Of a DNA stretch of 49,139 bases, positions 33,818-42,233 are shown in pieces. Below the pieces are notes generated by a model. That model searched no databases. It saw only the letters and a list, made by a program, of their open reading frames with translations, and had not been told where the DNA came from. The translations under genes and the position numbers were made by a program. How positions within the stretch are numbered: position 1 is the first letter of the stretch; each line of letters starts with the position of its first letter. The stretch comes from Thermoanaerobaculum sp. (lineage in GTDB: Bacteria; Acidobacteriota; Thermoanaerobaculia; Multivoradales; UBA5704): positions 1 to 49,139 of the forward strand of contig JAJKHS010000034.1 of assembly GCA_021154885.1 (NCBI GenBank). Direction: 5' to 3'.

Positions 33818-34306
33818 ATGGCGAATGCTCGCGAGAAAGAGCAGTTCCTCCAGTACCTGCGCGGCCGGGGGCAACGGGTCACCGGCGAGCGGCTGGCGCT
33901 CTTCGAGGAGATCTTCTCCCAGCACGGGCACATCGACGCCGAAGAGTTGCTGGCGGCGATGAAGGCCCGCGGCCTCAAGATCTCCCGCGCCACCGTCTAC
34001 CGCAACCTCGACCTGCTGGTGGAGAGCGGCTTGGCCCGCAAGCAGCGGCTGGGCAGCCGGGGTTTCCTCTACGAGCATGTGCATTTCGGACAGCAGCATG
34101 ACCACCTGGTGTGCACCGGCTGTGGCCGGGTGGTGGAGTTCGTCAGCCTGGGGATCGCGGCGCTGCAGGGGGAGATCTGCCGCGCCCACGGCTTCGTTCC
34201 GACGCGCCACACGCTGCAGATCGCCGGCCTGTGCAACCGCTGCGCGGAGGCGTCCGCCGCGTCCGACACGGCTCAATCGCGCGGGGAGGTGCCGGCCCAT
34301 GTTTGA
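33818..34306 (+). CDS. Fur-family metal-responsive regulator
   Basis: 162-aa Fur-family protein. It has a winged helix (QRVTGERLALFEEIF, then KISRATVYRNLDLLVESGL), a metal-sensing HxHxxQHDHLVC segment, and two Cys pairs (CTGCG and LCNRC) that form the structural zinc site of Fur/PerR proteins. The 3' end overlaps the FTR1 permease gene by eight bases, which makes an iron-responsive role more likely than zinc or peroxide sensing. First gene of the iron locus. Confidence 0.9.
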   Translation: MANAREKEQFLQYLRGRGQRVTGERLALFEEIFSQHGHIDAEELLAAMKARGLKISRATVYRNLDLLVESGLARKQRLGSRGFLYEHVHFGQQHDHLVCTGCGRVVEFVSLGIAALQGEICRAHGFVPTRHTLQIAGLCNRCAEASAASDTAQSRGEVPAHV

Positions 34307-35600
34307 GGCCTTCATCGTCACTCTGCGCGAAGGGGTGGAGGCGGCCCTGGTGGTGGGGATCATCGTGGCCTTCCTGCGCCGGGAGGGGTACGAGCGGCGG
34401 CTTGGAGCAGTGTGGGCCGGCATCGCCGCAGCGGCGGCGGCGAGCCTGCTGGGCGCCTTCCTCCTCTACCGCTGGGCAGTGAACCAGGAGGTCTTCGAGG
34501 GCCTGCTGTACCTGGGCTCGGCCCTCATCGTCGGCTCCATGATGGTGTGGATGTGGCGCCACTCCCACGCTCTTTCTGGGGAGATGAAGGGATCGCTGGC
34601 GCGCATCGTGGCGCGGGAGCGGGCGGGGTCGGTGGCCGCGGGCCTCTTCGCCTTCACCTTCCTGATGGTTTTCCGCGAGGGGATCGAGACGGTGCTGTTC
34701 CTCTCCGCCCTGTCGCTCACCACCGGCGGCCTGATGGCCATCCTGGGGGTGCTGGCCGGCCTGGCCCTGGCGGTGGTCTTCGGCGTGCTGTTCGTGCGCG
34801 GCAGCCTGCGCATCGACCTCGGCCGCTTCTTCAAGATCACGGGTATCGCCCTGTTCATCTTCGTCCTGCAGCTCCTGACCAACGGCTACCACGAGCTGTC
34901 GGAGGCGGGGTGGCTGCCGGCCAACCGGACCACCATGGCGACGGTGGGGCCGCTGGTGAAGAACGAGTTCTTCTTCGTGGCGGCGGTGCTGGCGCTGCCG
35001 CTGCTGATGCTGCTGATTCCGGGCCGGCGCCGGGAGGAGGCGGCAGCCACCGGCGCGGCGGCGCGGCTGGAGAAGGCCGGGAGCCGCCGGCAGGCGCGGG
35101 CCCGCGTACTGGGTGCGACGCTGGGCCTGATCATCCTCGCGGCCCTCGGCCTGGGGTTCGTCTATGCCCAGCCGCCGGCCGCGCTGTCGGCGGCCACGCC
35201 GGTGGAGGTGGGAGCGGACGGCGCGGTGCGCATCCCCCTCGCGATCTTCCAGGGCACCAGGCTCCAGCGCTTCCAGGCCGTCGTGGACGGCCGCCCGGTG
35301 CGCTTCATCGCCATCCCGATCGAGTCCATCGAGAAGGGTGGGGCCATCGCCACGGCCTTCGACGCCTGCGTCATCTGCGGCCCGCGAGGCTATTACCAGG
35401 ATGGCCCGAACGTCACCTGCCTGCACTGCGGCTCGGCGGTCTATCCGCCGAGCATCGGCCAGCCGGGGGGCTGCAACCCTGTCCCCTTGAAGTCGCGGGT
35501 CGAGGGCGGCAGCCTCGTGCTGACGGCCGCAGATCTCGCCGCCGGCGCCCACCTGTTCGCGCCGACGACTGCGGCGGCCGCGGCACACGCGGGGCACTGA
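34299..35600 (+). CDS. FTR1 iron permease fused to a DUF2318 domain
   Basis: 433-aa fusion. Residues 1 to about 250 form a multi-pass FTR1 permease with two REGxE motifs (LREGVEAALVVGII and FREGIETVLFLSAL), the putative iron ligands. After a linker and one more helix (LGATLGLIILAALGLGFVYA), the outer domain is DUF2318-like: FDACVICGPRGYYQDGPNVT, then CLHCGSAVYPPSIGQPGGCN, with five cysteines. In Campylobacter and relatives these two proteins are encoded separately in the P19 iron-uptake cluster together with ABC permeases, matching the genes that follow. No P19-like protein is found here. Confidence 0.9.
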   Translation: MFEAFIVTLREGVEAALVVGIIVAFLRREGYERRLGAVWAGIAAAAAASLLGAFLLYRWAVNQEVFEGLLYLGSALIVGSMMVWMWRHSHALSGEMKGSLARIVARERAGSVAAGLFAFTFLMVFREGIETVLFLSALSLTTGGLMAILGVLAGLALAVVFGVLFVRGSLRIDLGRFFKITGIALFIFVLQLLTNGYHELSEAGWLPANRTTMATVGPLVKNEFFFVAAVLALPLLMLLIPGRRREEAAATGAAARLEKAGSRRQARARVLGATLGLIILAALGLGFVYAQPPAALSAATPVEVGADGAVRIPLAIFQGTRLQRFQAVVDGRPVRFIAIPIESIEKGGAIATAFDACVICGPRGYYQDGPNVTCLHCGSAVYPPSIGQPGGCNPVPLKSRVEGGSLVLTAADLAAGAHLFAPTTAAAAAHAGH

Positions 35601-35612
35601 GAACGGAATCCG

Positions 35613-36863
35613 ATGTACGGTCGCCTGCTCATCGAGTCGCTGCGCCGCGGCACCCGCCGCAAGCTGCTGGCGGTCTCTGCCGTGGCCCTGGGGACGCTGG
35701 GCGCCACGGCGCTCACCGAGGTGATGCTGGCCTCGGGGGACCGCTTGGCGTCGGAGATGGGCTCCTACGGCGCCAACCTGGAGGTGGTGCCGGCGCAGGC
35801 AGGCGAGACCCTCCCGGTCGCGGAGCTCGCGGCGGTGCGCAAGATTTTCTGGCGCAACAACATCGTGGCCATCGCCCCGCTCCACAGCCTGCGCGTGCGC
35901 TGGGCGCCTGGGGAGCCGAGGGAGGTCGTGGCGCCCCTGGTGGGCACCTGGTTCGACCACGCCCTGGAGCCGGACTGGCGGACGGGCCTGCCGCGCACCC
36001 GGCCGACCCTGAAGGTGGCAGGGCGGTGGCCGCGGGAGGGCTCGCCGGAGGGAGCTGGCGAGGTGGTGCTGGGCCGGCGGTTGGCCGAGCGCCTGGACCG
36101 CCGCCCGGGGGACGCGGTGCAGGCCCGTCTCGGCGAGCGCGGCGCGGCCTTCCGCGTCGTCGGCGTGCTGACCAGCGGCGGCGAGGAGGACGAGCAGGCC
36201 TTCGCGCCGCTCGCGGCCGTGCAGCGGCTGGGCAGCCAGCCGGGGCGCTTCACGCGGGCCGAGGTCTTCGCCATGACTACCCCCGAAAAGCAGCCCGAGA
36301 ACCGGAACGCGCGGCCCGACCCCCACCGCATGAGCGCCGAGGAGTACGAGACCTGGTACTGCACGGCGTACCCGTCGTCGATCGCCTTCCAGCTCAATCA
36401 GGCCCTGCCGCGGGCGCGGGCGAGCGTCGTCTACGGCGTCACCGCCGCGACGGCGGACGTCCTCGGCCGCCTGCGGGGAGTCTTGGGCGCCCTGGCGGCG
36501 GTGGCCCTCCTCGGGGCGGCCGTGGGCGTCACCGCGGCGATAACCGCCACGGTGCTGGAGCGGCGGCTGGAGGCCGGCCTGATGGTGGCCATCGGCGCGC
36601 CCCGCAGCCGGGTGGTCCTCTTCTTCCTCAGCGAGGCGGCGCTGCTCGGCCTGCTCGGCGGGATCGCCGGCGGCGCGTTGGGGCTGACGGCCGGCCGCCT
36701 GCTGGGGAGCGGTGCCCTGGGCGTCGCCGTGCCGTGGACGCCCGTGCTCCTCCCCTTCGCAGCGCTGCTGGGGCTGCTCCTGGCCGTTCTGGCGAGCCTC
36801 GCGCCCGTGGCGCGGGCCTTGGAGCGCTACCCCGCCGACATCCTCAAGAGGGCGACGGCCTGA
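35613..36863 (+). CDS. ABC permease (FtsX type) of the iron locus, subunit 1
   Basis: 416-aa permease: an N-terminal helix (LLAVSAVALGTLGATALTEV), an outer domain of about 230 residues (with GANLEVVPAQ), and C-terminal helices that include ATVLERRLEAGLMVAIGAPR. The equivalent pair of permeases accompanies FTR1/DUF2318 genes in P19-type iron clusters. The stop overlaps the next start (TGATG). A substrate-loading or periplasmic-remodelling role is inferred from context only. Confidence 0.85.
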   Translation: MYGRLLIESLRRGTRRKLLAVSAVALGTLGATALTEVMLASGDRLASEMGSYGANLEVVPAQAGETLPVAELAAVRKIFWRNNIVAIAPLHSLRVRWAPGEPREVVAPLVGTWFDHALEPDWRTGLPRTRPTLKVAGRWPREGSPEGAGEVVLGRRLAERLDRRPGDAVQARLGERGAAFRVVGVLTSGGEEDEQAFAPLAAVQRLGSQPGRFTRAEVFAMTTPEKQPENRNARPDPHRMSAEEYETWYCTAYPSSIAFQLNQALPRARASVVYGVTAATADVLGRLRGVLGALAAVALLGAAVGVTAAITATVLERRLEAGLMVAIGAPRSRVVLFFLSEAALLGLLGGIAGGALGLTAGRLLGSGALGVAVPWTPVLLPFAALLGLLLAVLASLAPVARALERYPADILKRATA

Positions 36864-37702
36864 TGCTCGCCCGCCTGGTGCTCATGAGCCTGCGCCGCCG
36901 CTTCCGGCAGCTCGCGCTGATCCTGGCCGCGGTGACGGTGGCCGCGGCCACGGTGGCCACCCTGGCCGGCTTCTCCAGCCGCGCGGAGGGCCGGCTGGGC
37001 GACAGCCTGGCCGCCTTCGGGCCGAACCTCACGGTGCGGCCCCAGGTGGGCGGCGCGGCGAGCCTCACCCTCGACGTGGTGGCGCGGCTGCGGCAGGTGC
37101 CGGGAGTGCGCGTCGCGACCGGGGTCAGCGGTACGCCCCTGCCGGCGAGCTTCGGCCAGGCCGGCGGCGACGCTCTGGAGCGTGTGGAGGTCCGTGCCGA
37201 TCCCGGCCGGCTGGACGAGGTGGCCCGCGCCATCGAGTCGCGAGTGGAGGGGGTCGAGGCCCGCCCCCTCCTCCGGGTCAGCGAGTCGGATGCCCGGGTG
37301 ACCCGCCGGCTGACGCTGGTGCTCGTCGCCGTGAGCGCCGTCTCCTTCCTCCTGGCCCTCCTCTCCGTCGGCGCGGCGACCACAGCGCTGGTGGGAGAGC
37401 GGCGGGTGGAGATCGGGCTCCTCCTGGCCCTCGGCTACACCGGCCGGCGGGTGGGCGCCTTCCTGGCGGCCGAGCTGCTGGCCGCGGCGCTGCTGGCCGG
37501 CGCGGTGGGCGAGCTGGTGGGCGAGCTGGCGGCCGGCGGCCTCGCCCAACGCATGCTGGGGGATGCCGGGGGACTCTCCCTGACCTGGGGCGGCTTCGCC
37601 GGCGCCGCCCTGGTGGCGGTGCTGGTGGTGGGCTCCTCCATGCTGGTGGCGCTGCGGCGGGTGGAGCGGCTGGATGCCGCCCGGGTGCTGCGAGGCGAAT
37701 GA
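36863..37702 (+). CDS. ABC permease (FtsX type) of the iron locus, subunit 2
   Basis: 279-aa permease with the same plan but a shorter outer domain (about 110 residues). The N-terminal block is LALILAAVTVAAATVATLAG, followed by FGPNLTVRPQVGG and the C-terminal TALVGERRVEIGLLLALGYT. It ends in RVERLDAARVLRGE. Start at ATG 36863, overlapping the previous stop; the ATPase gene begins eight bases after its stop. Confidence 0.85.
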   Translation: MLARLVLMSLRRRFRQLALILAAVTVAAATVATLAGFSSRAEGRLGDSLAAFGPNLTVRPQVGGAASLTLDVVARLRQVPGVRVATGVSGTPLPASFGQAGGDALERVEVRADPGRLDEVARAIESRVEGVEARPLLRVSESDARVTRRLTLVLVAVSAVSFLLALLSVGAATTALVGERRVEIGLLLALGYTGRRVGAFLAAELLAAALLAGAVGELVGELAAGGLAQRMLGDAGGLSLTWGGFAGAALVAVLVVGSSMLVALRRVERLDAARVLRGE

Positions 37703-37709
37703 GGGCGCC

Positions 37710-38774
37710 ATGGCGCTGGTGGAAACCGAGGCCCTGAGCCGCCGTTTCGGGCCGTTGCGCGCCCTCGACGAGCTCACGCTCGGAATCGAACAGGGGGACT
37801 GGGTGGCGGTGACCGGCCCGTCGGGATCGGGCAAGACCACCCTCCTCAACATCCTCTCCGGCCTGGACCGGCCCACCTCCGGCACGGTGCGGGTGGGCGG
37901 CGTGGACCTGGCGGGTCTCTCGGCACGGGAGCTGGCCGGCTACCGGCAGCGGACGGTCGGCCTGGTCTTCCAGCAGTTCCACCTCATCCCCTATCTCACC
38001 GCGCTGGAGAACGTCATGCTGGCGCAGTACGTCCACAGCATGACCGACCGCGGCGAGGCCGAGGAGGCGCTGCGCAAGGTGGGTCTCGGCGAGCGCCTCG
38101 GCCACCTCCCCAGCCAGCTCTCCGGCGGCGAGCAGCAACGGGTATGCATCGCCCGGGCGCTGATCAACCAGCCGCCGCTCATCCTGGCGGACGAGCCCAC
38201 GGGCAACCTGGACGCGGTCAACGAGGCGGTGGTGATGTCGCTCCTCGCCGACCTGCACCAGCGCGGCCACACGCTGATCCTGGTCACCCACGATCCGGCC
38301 ATCGCCGCCCGTGCCGGCCGGGAGATCCGTCTCGAGCACGGCCGGCTGGCCGCGGTGGGGCTGCAGGGGGACCTCGAGCTGCAGGCGGTGCTGGCCGACC
38401 TCTGGCAGCGCCTGGAGGAGGATGGCGAGGGGGTCTCGGTGGCGCGGCGCGGCGTGGCCGAGCTGCTGGCCGATGGCCTCCTCGCCTTCGTGGACGGCCG
38501 GATCGCCTTCACGGAACGGGGACGAGCCCAAGCCTCGGCCGTCGTGCGGCGGATCCGTCTGGCGGAGGTGCTGCTGGCGCGCACCCTCGACCGCAGCCTG
38601 GCCGAGGAGTGCGGCCGGGAGACCCCGGTGGCCGCCGGCTTCGAGGACCAGGTCTGCGCCTTCCTCGACCACCCGGCCCTCTGCCCCCACGGCCGGCCCA
38701 TCGCGCCCGGTCCGGGCTGCTGCGACCGGGAGGAGGTCCCGGCTGCCTCGGGAACGCTGGAGGTGGGCGCGTGA
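37710..38774 (+). CDS. ABC ATPase fused to a DtxR-like metal-binding domain
   Basis: 354-aa fusion. Residues 1-215 are a LolD/MacB-type ATPase: Walker A GPSGSGKT 36-43, LSGGE 137-141, Walker B LILADEP 157-163 and His194. Residues about 222-340 match DtxR/IdeR-type repressors from the wing onward: GRIAFTERGRAQASAVVRR, IRLAEVLLA, EECGRE (Cys301, in the place of the metal-site Cys of DtxR) and CPHGRPI (325-331), with further Cys at 316, 337 and 338. The segment before the wing is too short for a complete helix-turn-helix, so DNA binding is doubtful and metal sensing in cis with the ATPase is the better guess. GTGA overlap with apbE. Confidence 0.85.
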   Translation: MALVETEALSRRFGPLRALDELTLGIEQGDWVAVTGPSGSGKTTLLNILSGLDRPTSGTVRVGGVDLAGLSARELAGYRQRTVGLVFQQFHLIPYLTALENVMLAQYVHSMTDRGEAEEALRKVGLGERLGHLPSQLSGGEQQRVCIARALINQPPLILADEPTGNLDAVNEAVVMSLLADLHQRGHTLILVTHDPAIAARAGREIRLEHGRLAAVGLQGDLELQAVLADLWQRLEEDGEGVSVARRGVAELLADGLLAFVDGRIAFTERGRAQASAVVRRIRLAEVLLARTLDRSLAEECGRETPVAAGFEDQVCAFLDHPALCPHGRPIAPGPGCCDREEVPAASGTLEVGA

Positions 38775-39847
38775 GGGCTCTCTGGCTCGCTCCCCTCGTT
38801 CCCCTCGTTCCCCTCGTTCCCCTCCTGGCGGCGGCTCCCATCCCGCAGGGCGTCCAGCGGACGGTCACCGTCGAGCGGCGGCTGGGCCTGATGGGAACCG
38901 AGCTCGAAGTGAGTGTCGAGGCCGCGAACCGCGCCGTCGCGCTCGATGCAAGCGAAGAGGCGGTCCGCGCTCTGGAGGCGGCGGAGGGCCGTCTCTCGAC
39001 TTGGCGCGACGACAGCGAGCTCGAACGCCTCAACCGCACGCCGGTCGATAGACCGCTTCAACTCTCGCCCCGTCTGTTCCAGGAGTTGCGCGGCGTGCAG
39101 CACTGGTGGCGGGAGACCGGTGGCGCCTTCGATCCGGGGATCGGCGCGCTGATCGCGGCCTGGGGCCTGCGCACCGGCGGCCGGGTGCCCACTGCGGAGG
39201 AGCGGGAACGGGCGCGCGCGGCCGGCGGCCTCGCCGCTCTGGAGCTCGCGGCGGATGGCCGGGCGGTGCGCCGGCGGCCGGGGCTGCGCATCGAAGAGGG
39301 GGGTTGGGGCAAGGGCGCCGGGCTCGACGCCGCGATCGAGGCGCTCCGTGCCGACGGACACGCCACGGCCGCGGTGCTGAACCTGGGCGGTCAGGTCGCC
39401 GTCTACGATGGGAGGGGCCAGGGGATGGGTTGGACCCTCACCGTCGCCGACCCGCGGGACCGGCGGCGACCGGCCGTGGCGCTCACGTTCTCCTCGGGCT
39501 CGGTCGCCACCTCGGGCAACAGCGAGCACGGCTTCGAGCGGGCTGGCGTGCGCTACGGCCACCTTCTCGACCCTGCGACCGGCGCGCCGGCGCGCGACTT
39601 CGGCAGCCTCACCGTCTGGGCTCCCGAGGCGCTCGCCGCCGACTGTCTCTCGAAGCTCTACGTCCGTGGCCCCGACGCGGCGCTCGCCTGGGCGCGGGCA
39701 CACACGGGCGGCGAGGTCCTGACCCTCGAGCCGGTTGCCGGCGGCGGCCTGCGCGCCCGCGCCTCCGCCGGCTGGCGGGGGCGGCTGGAAGCGCTCGTTC
39801 CGGAGCTCGTGGTCGAGTTTGAATCCCGCGCGAACGAAGGAGCCTAG
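38771..39847 (+). CDS. apbE: FAD:protein FMN transferase (ApbE)
   Basis: 358-aa ApbE from GTG 38771, overlapping the ATPase stop. The signal peptide is built from in-frame PLV repeats. Key parts of the family are present: GGAFDPGIGALIAAWGLR, GGWGKGAGLDAAIEAL (in place of GGIAKGYAVD), VLNLGGQVAVYD, SVATSGNSEHGFE and YGHLLDPATGAPA. The enzyme attaches FMN covalently to Ser/Thr of extracytoplasmic FMN-binding domains. The FMN-binding protein two genes downstream is the obvious substrate. Confidence 0.92.
   Translation: MRALWLAPLVPLVPLVPLLAAAPIPQGVQRTVTVERRLGLMGTELEVSVEAANRAVALDASEEAVRALEAAEGRLSTWRDDSELERLNRTPVDRPLQLSPRLFQELRGVQHWWRETGGAFDPGIGALIAAWGLRTGGRVPTAEERERARAAGGLAALELAADGRAVRRRPGLRIEEGGWGKGAGLDAAIEALRADGHATAAVLNLGGQVAVYDGRGQGMGWTLTVADPRDRRRPAVALTFSSGSVATSGNSEHGFERAGVRYGHLLDPATGAPARDFGSLTVWAPEALAADCLSKLYVRGPDAALAWARAHTGGEVLTLEPVAGGGLRARASAGWRGRLEALVPELVVEFESRANEGA
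38795..38821 (+). repeat. Three exact copies of a 9-bp repeat in the apbE signal peptide
   Basis: CTCGTTCCC repeated three times in tandem and in frame, encoding the PLVPLVPLV run of the hydrophobic core. Copy-number change by slippage would alter signal-peptide length without a frameshift. Confidence 0.8.
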
Positions 39848-41212
39848 ATGCTGCGCACGCTTGGAGTGGCAGTGCTGATCGGCATGGTGGTAATCGCAGG
39901 AACGGCGCGGGCCGGCGAGCCGCCGTCGTTGACCCAGTTGGAGCAGGAGATCGCGGGTCTGCGGTCGGAGGTGCAGGCGCTCCGCGCGCAGAGCGGTCCG
40001 GACGCCGAACGCTTGAAAGAGCTCGAGCGCCAGCTCCAGGTGCTGGCGCAGGAGATCGAGACGCTGAAGCTCGGCGAGGCCGCGGCCACCGCCGACCGGT
40101 CGACGAACGGCATGGGGCCGGCGGCATCCAAGATCTATCGCAGCGGCAATGGCCTGGCGATCGGCGGCTATGGCGAGGGAGTGTATCGGCATTTCGACGG
40201 CAAGCTGCAGGACGGCAGCCCTTCCACAGCCGTCGACGAGGCCGACCTCCAGCGGGCCGTCCTCTACTTCGGCTACAAGTTCAACGATCGCTTCCTCTTC
40301 AACTCCGAGCTGGAGGTCGAGCACGCGGTCACCGCATCGGACAAGGACGGTGAAACGGAGGTGGAGTTCGCCTATGGCGACTACCTGTGGAAGCCGCAGG
40401 CCAATCTCCGCGCCGGACTGGTGCTGATGCCGGTGGGTCTGCTCAACGAGTACCACGAGCCCACCGTCTTCTTCGGCATGAGCAGGAACAGCGTCGAGAC
40501 CGCGATCATCCCGACCACATGGCGCGAGATCGGCTTCGGCCTTTATGGCGAGGCCGGTCCCTGGCGCTATCGCGCCTATCTCACCAACGGTCTCGACGCC
40601 TCGCGCTTCTCCGCCGACGGCCTCCGCGAGGGGCAGGGCGAGGGCTCGCATGCGAAGGCGGAGGATCTGGCGTGGGTGGGGCGGCTCGACTACACCGGCG
40701 TTCAGGGCCTGCTGATCGGCGGCTCGGCCTTCACCGGCGATTCCGGCCAGGGGCTTCGCGACGCCGCGGGACGGCGGATCGGCGCTCGGGTGAGCCTCTA
40801 CGAAGCCCATGTCGACTGGCGCTGGCGGGGTCTGCAGCTCCGCGCGCTCGGGGTGAGGAGCCGCGTCGGCGATGCGGCAGCCCTCAACCGGGCGCTGGGT
40901 CTGGAGGGTGAGAAGGGCATCGGCAAAGCCCAGAGCGGCGCCTACGCGGAGGTGGGGTATGACCTCCTGAGCCTCCACGCGGGTAGCCGGCAGCGGCTGA
41001 TCCCGTTCGCCCGCTACGAGTCGTACGACACCCAGAGCGAGGTTCCGGCGGGCTTCGCGCGCGATCCGGCCAACGACGCGCGTGTCCTCACCCTGGGCTT
41101 CAACTACTACCCGATCGACCAACTGGTGGTGAAGGCCAACGTGCTGCGCGTCCGCAACGAAGCCCGGACGGGCCAGAACGAGCTCCAGGTCGGGCTGGGC
41201 TACGTCTTTTGA
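39848..41212 (+). CDS. Outer-membrane porin with N-terminal coiled coil
   Basis: 454-aa protein directly after apbE (no gap). Signal peptide: LRTLGVAVLIGMVVIAGTARA. Residues about 27-80 are a coiled coil (LTQLEQEIAGLRSEVQALRA, LKELERQLQVLAQEIETLKL). From about residue 100 to the end there are alternating amphipathic strands, ending in the aromatic QVGLGYVF, the usual beta-barrel C-terminus. It resembles phosphate-selective-porin (OprO/P)-like proteins. In this operon it could admit iron chelates or flavins. Confidence 0.75.
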   Translation: MLRTLGVAVLIGMVVIAGTARAGEPPSLTQLEQEIAGLRSEVQALRAQSGPDAERLKELERQLQVLAQEIETLKLGEAAATADRSTNGMGPAASKIYRSGNGLAIGGYGEGVYRHFDGKLQDGSPSTAVDEADLQRAVLYFGYKFNDRFLFNSELEVEHAVTASDKDGETEVEFAYGDYLWKPQANLRAGLVLMPVGLLNEYHEPTVFFGMSRNSVETAIIPTTWREIGFGLYGEAGPWRYRAYLTNGLDASRFSADGLREGQGEGSHAKAEDLAWVGRLDYTGVQGLLIGGSAFTGDSGQGLRDAAGRRIGARVSLYEAHVDWRWRGLQLRALGVRSRVGDAAALNRALGLEGEKGIGKAQSGAYAEVGYDLLSLHAGSRQRLIPFARYESYDTQSEVPAGFARDPANDARVLTLGFNYYPIDQLVVKANVLRVRNEARTGQNELQVGLGYVF

Positions 41213-41217
41213 GCGCC

Positions 41218-41772
41218 ATGCGCCTGCGCAACCTGATGATTCTCTGTGTGGGTCTGGCTGCGCTGGCCGCGATGGTGGCCGGGCCCGTCGCGGCAAAGGT
41301 CTTCCTCACCGTCGACGAGGCTCTCCACCTCGCCTTTCGGGACTGCTCCGTCGAACGCCACACGGTCTTCCTGACCGCCGGGCAGCGCGCCCGTGCCCAG
41401 CAGCTCGCGGGGCGCGAGATCAAGAGCGGGCTCGTCAATCCGTACCACGCGACCTGCGGCGGCAAGGACGCCGGCACGGCCTACTTCGACGCCCACGTCG
41501 TGCGCACCCTGCCCGAGACGCTCATGGTGGTGGTCGATCCCCAGGGCAAGGTGTCGCGGGTCGAAGTGCTGTCCTTCGCCGAGCCCGAGGATTATCTGCC
41601 GCCGGGCCGGTGGTACGGCCAGTTCGTGGGCAACGGGTTGAGCGACGAGCTGGCGCTGGGGCATCGCATCCGCGGCGTCACCGGGGCCTCGCTGACCGCG
41701 CGCGCGACGACCGACGCGGTGCGGCGGGTGCTGGCCATCCACCAGGTGCTTCACGATGCGGGGAAGCCGTGA
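41218..41772 (+). CDS. FMN-binding domain protein, probable ApbE substrate
   Basis: 184-aa protein. ATG 41218 gives a clean signal peptide (RLRNLMILCVGLAALAAMVA); TTG 41209 is possible. The mature part ends in an FMN_bind-like domain: TLMVVVDPQGKVSRVEVLSF, then GHRIRGVTGASLTARATTDA. TGAS, followed by LT, is a flavinylation-type [ST]GA[ST] motif, the place where ApbE attaches FMN. Two Cys lie before it (FRDCS, ATCGG). It overlaps the following membrane cytochrome-like gene by GTGA, giving a natural electron-transfer pair. Confidence 0.8.
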   Translation: MRLRNLMILCVGLAALAAMVAGPVAAKVFLTVDEALHLAFRDCSVERHTVFLTAGQRARAQQLAGREIKSGLVNPYHATCGGKDAGTAYFDAHVVRTLPETLMVVVDPQGKVSRVEVLSFAEPEDYLPPGRWYGQFVGNGLSDELALGHRIRGVTGASLTARATTDAVRRVLAIHQVLHDAGKP

Positions 41773-42233
41773 GCCGCCTCGAGGCCTGGCTGCTGCACAC
41801 CGCGACGCTGCTCGTCGGCGGCACCGGCCTGATCTACGCCTGGATGCGCTACCTCTTGCACCCGGCGGACCCCTATGCCGTGGTCAACCATTCCCTCCAA
41901 CCCACGGTGCAGCACCTGCACATCCTGGTGGCCCCCCTGCTGGTCTTCGCCGGCGGCATGGTGTGGCACCGCCACGCCTGGACGCACTGGCGGCGGGGCG
42001 TCGAGCGCCGCCGGCAGAGCGGCGGCTCGCTGATCCTCACCCTGGTGCCGATGGTGGTCTCGGGGTATCTGATCCAGACCGCGGTCGACGGCGGCTGGCG
42101 GCGGACCTGGGTGATCGTCCACCTCGCAGCGTCAGGGCTTTGGCTGGCCGGCTACCTGGCGCACCAGGTGCCGGCGGCCTGGAAGAGCCTGCGCCGGCGC
42201 CCCTATCTCCGGCTGACCTCGGACCAGCGGTAG
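41769..42233 (+). CDS. Small b-cytochrome-like membrane protein
   Basis: 154-aa integral membrane protein, GTG start overlapping the FMN-binding gene. Four helices are visible: about residues 6-26 (LLHTATLLVGGTGLIYAWMR), 45-68 (QHLHILVAPLLVFAGGMVWH), 88-104 (LILTLVPMVVSGYLI) and 114-135 (WVIVHLAASGLWLAGYLAHQ). Histidines near helix ends (HTATLL, QHLHILV, HRHAW, VHLAAS, AHQ) could bind heme, as in small membrane b-cytochromes, but no family is recognised. A partner passing electrons across the membrane to the flavoprotein is the contextual guess. Its last 31 bases overlap the convergent gene. Confidence 0.7.
   Translation: MSRLEAWLLHTATLLVGGTGLIYAWMRYLLHPADPYAVVNHSLQPTVQHLHILVAPLLVFAGGMVWHRHAWTHWRRGVERRRQSGGSLILTLVPMVVSGYLIQTAVDGGWRRTWVIVHLAASGLWLAGYLAHQVPAAWKSLRRRPYLRLTSDQR

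Follow-up and report, generated by a model that had tools for sequence, protein, structure and literature searches.

The window, the whole 49,139-nucleotide stretch of Thermoanaerobaculum sp. DNA analyzed in the present study, carries an FTR1 operon on its forward strand (Table 1). The gene for a Fur-family regulator, which is likely the transcription factor of the locus, is followed by one in which an FTR1 iron permease is fused to an FtrD-like domain, and the fused protein has three RExxE motifs and the cysteine pattern CxxC-x13-CxxC-x14-C. The ABC ATPase under study is encoded after two permease genes (35613-36863 and 36863-37702), and both of the FtsX/MacB-type permease partners expected of a MacB/LolD-type ATPase are present. 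The GTG start codon of the ApbE gene overlaps the stop codon of the ATPase gene. The ATPase gene is followed at 38771-42233 by adjacent or overlapping genes for ApbE, a porin-like protein, a TGAS-motif FMN-binding protein, and a small membrane protein, which we take to be possibly an extracytoplasmic flavin-based iron reductase module; in locus L189, the genes for ApbE, the FMN-binding protein, and the porin lie beside the FTR1 operon on the opposite strand.

Table 1. Genes of the operon and segments of the ATPase protein in the window, with the basis of each assignment.
Feature	Positions	Strand	Basis
Fur-family regulator, likely transcription factor of the locus	33818..34306	+	PF01475 E 7.2e-26
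FTR1 iron permease fused to FtrD-like domain	34299..35600	+	PF03239 E 3.5e-37, PF10080 E 1.1e-22
MacB/FtsX-type permease 1	35613..36863	+	PF02687 E 2.9e-15, PF12704 E 1.2e-10
FtsX-type permease 2	36863..37702	+	PF02687 E 6.1e-9 in longer open frame 34412-37702
ABC ATPase domain, aa 1-214	37710..38351	+	PF00005 E 9.9e-35; five motifs; fold matches
Helix 1 of DtxR-derived domain, aa 219-238, with Ala at ligand positions 10 and 13	38364..38423	+	AlphaFold model, alignment
Remaining helix and wing of truncated winged helix-turn-helix, helix 2 missing, aa 246-267	38445..38510	+	AlphaFold model, spacing
Long helix, aa 269-292, expected to pair two copies	38514..38585	+	AlphaFold model, aligned residues
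Eroded DtxR metal helix, aa 293-313	38586..38648	+	2/9 family-conserved columns kept
Conserved Cys/His tail C316 H321 C325 H327 C337 C338 (CPHG...CC)	38655..38723	+	12/15 conserved columns kept, aa 314-338
ApbE-family flavin transferase	38771..39847	+	PF02424 E 2.9e-56 in longer open frame 38144-39847

The open frame at 37710-38774 on the forward strand encodes 354 amino acids, residues 1-214 of which form a MacB/LolD-type ABC ATPase. The Pfam profile ABC_tran matched residues 19-164, the five catalytic motifs (Walker A, Q-loop, signature, Walker B, and H-loop) are intact, and MacB, LolD, YbbA, and related structures were the top listed matches of the protein in fold searches; the listed rows of both fold searches are ABC ATPases and say nothing on the C-terminal domain. 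The ATPase scored 204.8 bits against the LolD equivalog model, which is below its cut-off of 307.75.

Regarding the C-terminal part, the profile Fe_dep_repr_C (PF02742) matched residues 268-331 (E 5.4e-11, 42.8 bits against a cut-off of 27), and the last 140 residues alone matched IdeR/DtxR chains in the PDB (best match 1b1b, E 2.1e-8). These matches bear out the first-pass annotation of this protein as an ABC ATPase with a DtxR-type C-terminal domain, including the DtxR relation that it had proposed to examine by profile searches. A Pfam search with the C-terminal domain alone returned PF02742 and a weak HemN_C match and no others. The 28 PDB sequences matched by the C-terminal 140 residues were all 239 residues or shorter, and, hence, none of them also contained an ABC domain. 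The mean pLDDT of the AlphaFold model of the window protein was 84.9; this model and that of the relative L064 described below are of monomers.

A genome scan identified 213 relatives, the best 80 of which were kept. Most of these 80 came from records labeled Acidobacteria or with the name of an acidobacterial group, and the rest from Nitrospirae, Deltaproteobacteria, Hydrothermarchaeota, KSB1, Zixibacteria, Latescibacterota, Krumholzibacteria, Eisenbacteria, Armatimonadota, and others. The scan pattern, ACxFEH[IV]L[ST][PL], forces C102, E105, and H106 (IdeR numbering), and ligand counts on these loci (L064-L143) are not our main evidence. The domain was fused to an ABC ATPase in 58 of the best 80 (including L078, discussed below); the architecture, for which the first-pass annotation had suggested a search, is recurrent. 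FTR1-FtrD or FtrD labels were present in 51 of the 58 fused loci, the remaining seven being L078, L093, L121, L123, L126, L135, and L143. The other 22 of the best 80 were stand-alone proteins, 20 of which carried a FeoA label; of the two without it, L117 extends past the end of its stretch and L131 starts at the stretch edge. In three stand-alone proteins that were scanned, PF02742 and PF04023 (FeoA) were the only profiles matched at E 0.01. With L131 left out because it is cut at the edge, 20 of 21 loci have feoB immediately beside the stand-alone gene and on its strand, 19 of them upstream and one, L132, downstream; the 21st, L137, has a feoB fragment at the contig edge. Pfam identified FeoB in all six upstream neighbors scanned and in the downstream neighbor of L132. 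No feoB was found in the DNA stretches examined around the fused loci.

As a control free of the bias of the scan pattern, the FtrD family was searched for in 396 genomes of the phylum; 74 of them contained matches, 76 in all, corresponding to 75 stretches and the window itself. Twenty of the 75 stretches, several of them on short contigs, had no recognized ATPase of this kind, nine were of an FtrD-only type with a more distant ATPase, and 46 had the set of FTR1 and FtrD (separate genes in L206), permease, and ATPase. Among these 46 comparable operons, 22 were fused and 24 were without a recognized DtxR domain, where "fused" denotes phmmer recognition by the domain of the window or of L046, such that more eroded domains may be missed. 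The transporter can, thus, do without the domain. The 22 fused proteins are referred to below as the FtrD-anchored fused relatives.

Other fusions and neighbors were also noted during these searches. ABC-3 metal permeases with a C-terminal PF02742 domain were found in four genomes of the order of the window, one of which is of its family (L006:1468-2823, L007:1-1821, L012:1-1818, and L018:1486-3294), with no PF01325 match at E 0.01; as judged from these profile matches, they represent a second fusion between a DtxR-type domain and a metal transporter, separate from that of the ABC ATPase. A gene resembling thioredoxin reductase, a presumptive assignment, lies shortly 3' of the fused ATPase in 14 of the 44 loci with a listed downstream frame (e.g., L071:6557-7477), and its copy in L078, the sole copy so assigned, is a pyridine nucleotide-disulphide oxidoreductase by Pfam. 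L078 (4894-6459), from a Xanthobacteraceae record, was considered as an independent fusion and set aside because its contig is probably a chimera: the ATPase clusters among unrelated paralogs, whereas the C-terminal domain is placed with one from an acidobacterial record and the gene downstream is similar to its counterparts in acidobacterial loci. It is a row in both of the trees described below.

The first-pass annotation had also stated that the segment expected to form the helix-turn-helix is approximately 16 residues too short. Between the Trp/Tyr of helix 1 and the motif of the dimer helix, the window protein has 49 residues and IdeR has 62; the shortening, therefore, holds, with a deficit of 13 residues rather than approximately 16. 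In counts partly biased by selection with the scan pattern, the same spacing was 58 residues in 15 of 34 stand-alone relatives, while among 62 fused relatives (including L078), it was 55-59 in 32 and 88, because of an insert, in 14. In the AlphaFold model of the window protein, the structure prediction that the annotation had called for, helix 219-238 leads to helix 246-254 and then to the wing, and helix 2 is absent; in the model of L064, a relative with an intact site (mean pLDDT 86.3), a short helix (259-262) occupies the place of helix 2 beside residues with pLDDT <50. The profile of the DtxR DNA-binding helix-turn-helix, PF01325, gave no match in the C-terminal domain of the window at E up to 10 within HMMER's filters. 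It matched one of 24 C-terminal domains (E 0.2), all 24 of which matched PF02742, and, as a positive control, it matched the true DtxR genes in the archaeal loci L109 and L118 (E 3.1e-15 and 3e-18). These two loci (L109:2897-7058 and L118:2741-6648) hold FTR1, FeoB, a DtxR-FeoA protein lacking the helix-turn-helix, and the true DtxR together. Considering the models and profiles, the DtxR-derived domain of the window ATPase no longer looks able to bind DNA.

According to a previous report, the primary metal site of DtxR consists of M10, C102, E105, and H106, and the ligands of MntR are the equivalents of positions 10, 13, 79, 102, 105, and 106, with 13 and 79 being our own mapping (PMC4805248). 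The window protein has A, A, I (Ile282), C (Cys301), E (Glu304), and T (Thr305) at these six positions, and E (Glu286, the retained equivalent of Glu83) and L at positions 83 and 98. Two of the six classical ligand positions, Cys301 and Glu304, are, thus, kept, and with four of six lost, the classical site cannot be complete in this protein. Among the 22 FtrD-anchored fused relatives, C102, E105, and H106 were all kept in 21, position 10 was E/D in 21, position 13 was E in 20, and position 79 was H in 16, Q in five, and K in one; the full set of E/D10, H79, C102, E105, and H106 was present in 16 of them and not in the window protein. The first-pass annotation placed Cys301 and the CPHG sequence at 325-328 correctly; however, the metal site that it read from them is not borne out for this protein, and CPHG lies outside the DtxR/MntR ligands as part of a separate conserved Cys/His tail. 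This tail (IdeR-aligned C117, H122, C126, H128, and CC) was found in 21 of the 22 fused relatives and the window protein and also in the two archaeal true DtxR genes, and, hence, it is not peculiar to forms without the helix-turn-helix. Asp132 and His134 of Porphyromonas gingivalis MntR were described as further potential ligands in the same report (PMC4805248), and we infer that they occupy CPHG-like positions. A wing insert of approximately 30 residues with several His residues was present in six of the 22 fused relatives (L165, L166, L168, L180, L185, and L191).

The loss of ligands is unevenly spread over the domain. Columns were scored as conserved when shared by 20 or more of the 21 intact FtrD-anchored fused relatives. 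Of these, the window protein kept two of five in the winged helix-turn-helix, nine of 11 in the dimer helix, two of nine in the metal helix, and 12 of the 15 tail columns; the difference between tail and metal helix had a Fisher p of 0.010 for regions chosen after seeing the data. A protein of the window's own class, L224:9224-10240, one of the 22 FtrD-anchored fused relatives, is a second eroded member, which lost the metal-helix ligands and the CC pair, kept CPHG, and retained 2/5, 8/11, 3/9, and 9/15 of the respective columns. The identity to the family of the last ~70 residues of the domain was lower than that of the ATPase by 15.8 points in the window protein and by 11.4 points in L224, while for 27 further fused rows, drawn from 52 with L078 left out, this difference ranged from -3.3 to +4.8. 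A sequencing frameshift as the origin of the erosion was not supported: all six relatives tested matched the stretch significantly in the annotated frame only. No match to the window copy was found in two genomes of the same genus, the single match in one genome of the same family (E 1.1e-4) was to an ABC-3 permease fusion and not a close relative, and viral contigs gave no match. At the level of sequence, the window protein belongs to a recurrent architecture as an eroded member, and its own classical switch has decayed.

In the ATPase tree, which included 31 fused rows (about half of those available), the window grouped with five fused rows on a non-starred branch (89/83), and 21 of 23 distinct unfused rows formed one clade nested among fused rows, which suggests loss of the domain there. 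The fused label required five changes, including those at L078 and the long-branched L224, three of which were forced by starred branches, and, thus, a single origin of the fusion is not established. The C-terminal domain tree, with a window branch length of 10 and 34 of 77 inner forks open, was not used for placement. The natural series from intact through eroded (window, L224) to absent (the nested unfused clade) offers ready-made comparisons.

Among known systems, the operon resembles the P19/FTR1 cluster of Campylobacter jejuni (CJJ81176_1649-1656), described in the accessible part of its report as containing FTR1, a DUF2318 membrane protein with the pattern CxxC-x13-CxxC-x14/15-C, two permeases, and a cytoplasmic ATPase, the substrates of these permeases and ATPase being stated there as unknown (PMC6083913). 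The window operon shares FTR1, an FtrD-like part with the published cysteine spacing, two permeases, and an ATPase; however, its FTR1 and FtrD-like domain form one protein, neither P19 nor thioredoxin was found among the ten window proteins scanned, and its ATPase carries a putative regulatory domain, none being mentioned for the C. jejuni ATPase in that part of the report (PMC6083913). With DtxR, IdeR, and MntR, the window protein shares the metal-binding and dimerization domain and the wing, and its relatives keep the ligand positions; it differs in the incomplete helix-turn-helix, the fusion to an ABC ATPase, and the lack of four of six ligand positions. MetN and ModC have C-terminal domains that bind the substrate and restrain the ATPase, as outlined in a previous study (PMC10710835). 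The window protein likewise has a putative C-terminal regulatory domain on a transporter ATPase, for which the reading of substrate would be our proposal, whereas its domain is of another family, shared with transcription factors, and its transporter is MacB/LolD-like. In another report, FeoA was found to stabilize GTP-bound FeoB (PMC8980893); similar to FeoA and FeoC, the unfused sisters lie beside feoB and the three scanned carry a FeoA domain, while they differ by adding a DtxR-type metal domain. Open-access literature searches gave no description of a DtxR domain on an ABC ATPase, as judged by titles and abstract starts among the papers listed, consistent with the earlier remark that no characterized protein of this design was known, and the architecture may well be already listed in domain databases.

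The metal chemistry and pairing helix of the family are mostly kept, the helix-turn-helix is incomplete, and the domain accompanies the NTPases of two unrelated importers, for which the simplest reading is direct feedback. The window protein is, on this reading, the ATPase of an FTR1/FtrD-type iron-uptake ABC system with a DtxR-derived metal-binding and dimerization domain. In intact relatives, cytosolic Fe(II) would bind to a site formed by helix 1 (E10 and E13), H79, C102, E105, and H106 and shift the seating of the paired C-terminal domains, which may open or clamp the pair of ATPase domains, much as imported substrate does in trans-inhibition through the C2 domain of MetN or the C-terminal domain of ModC. 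The unfused module, mostly FeoA-tailed and encoded beside FeoB, would act on the G-protein instead. A non-DNA-binding, DtxR-derived metal sensor that serves the NTPases of iron importers and gates the ATPase, similar to the C-terminal domains of MetN and ModC, is, in our judgment, evenly poised between right and wrong; the architecture, the operon, the recurrence, the incomplete helix-turn-helix, the kept and lost ligand positions, and the feoB linkage are observed, and we infer metal binding, the identity of the metal, pairing, gating, and its sign. The proposal in the first-pass annotation that metal could act directly on ATP hydrolysis is well supported at the family level by the recurrent fusion, incomplete helix-turn-helix, mostly intact ligands, and unfused sisters beside feoB, but is weakened for the window protein by the loss of four of six ligand positions and by a divergence of the domain far greater than that of the ATPase. 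The window copy most likely keeps a role in pairing or docking and may sense metal or redox state through its Cys/His tail.

The erosion of the window copy lends itself to two further explanations. The C-terminal domain may be a module for pairing or docking two ATPases, or an ATPase and another iron protein, with the metal being at most structural and conveying no signal. The retention of nine of 11 conserved columns in the dimer helix against two of nine in the metal helix speaks for such a module, and L224 of the same class, which also lost ligands, still has a recognizable domain; however, the set of C102, E105, and H106 in 21 of 22 fused relatives goes beyond a purely structural need, and we regard this explanation as unlikely. 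For the window organism only, the domain may instead be a functionless remnant on its way out, a doubtful possibility to which we give slightly more credence and which is compatible with the sensor reading of the family. It would liken the protein to relatives in which little of the ATPase follows its ABC domain, and the nesting of the unfused clade among fused rows, the identity of the domain 15.8 points under that of the ATPase, and the retention of two of five winged helix-turn-helix columns are in line with decay, whereas the intact frame and the uneven retention between tail (12/15) and metal helix (2/9; Fisher p 0.010, post hoc regions) argue against it.

The company that the domain keeps bears on two others. 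Its position beside two unrelated iron importers, its many Cys and His residues, and the wing insert with several His residues in six of 22 fused relatives would suit a cytosolic iron receiver that takes Fe(II) leaving FTR1 or FeoB and passes it on or shields it, without switching the ATPase. We consider this to be distinctly improbable because the domain is fused to the ATPase and not to the iron-passing FTR1 permease, and characterized DtxR-family members use the metal-binding domain as a sensor. Kinship with DtxR and the kept wing and one further helix of the winged helix-turn-helix might also indicate a protein that moonlights as a transcription factor, which appears very improbable indeed: helix 2 is absent from the window model, while that of the L064 model is short and of low confidence, PF01325 matched only one of 24 C-terminal domains at E 0.2, the operon has its own Fur, and the two archaeal loci have a separate true DtxR. 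Returning to direct feedback, an extended form of it, in which a DtxR-derived clade left transcription to become a common iron gauge on or beside the FTR1-linked ABC ATPase and FeoB, giving direct post-translational feedback, with the gauge of the window protein rebuilt around its Cys/His tail into what may be a zinc, redox, or Fe-S switch, is put forward tentatively.

Control of iron uptake is usually placed at the level of transcription, with Fur and DtxR as the regulators. The many relatives with an intact copy of the sensor suggest that iron may throttle its own importer directly. If true, a repressor-derived sensor on a transporter ATPase would represent a fast second layer of control, and the DtxR-type domain encoded beside feoB would provide a testable idea for the shut-off of ferrous iron uptake.
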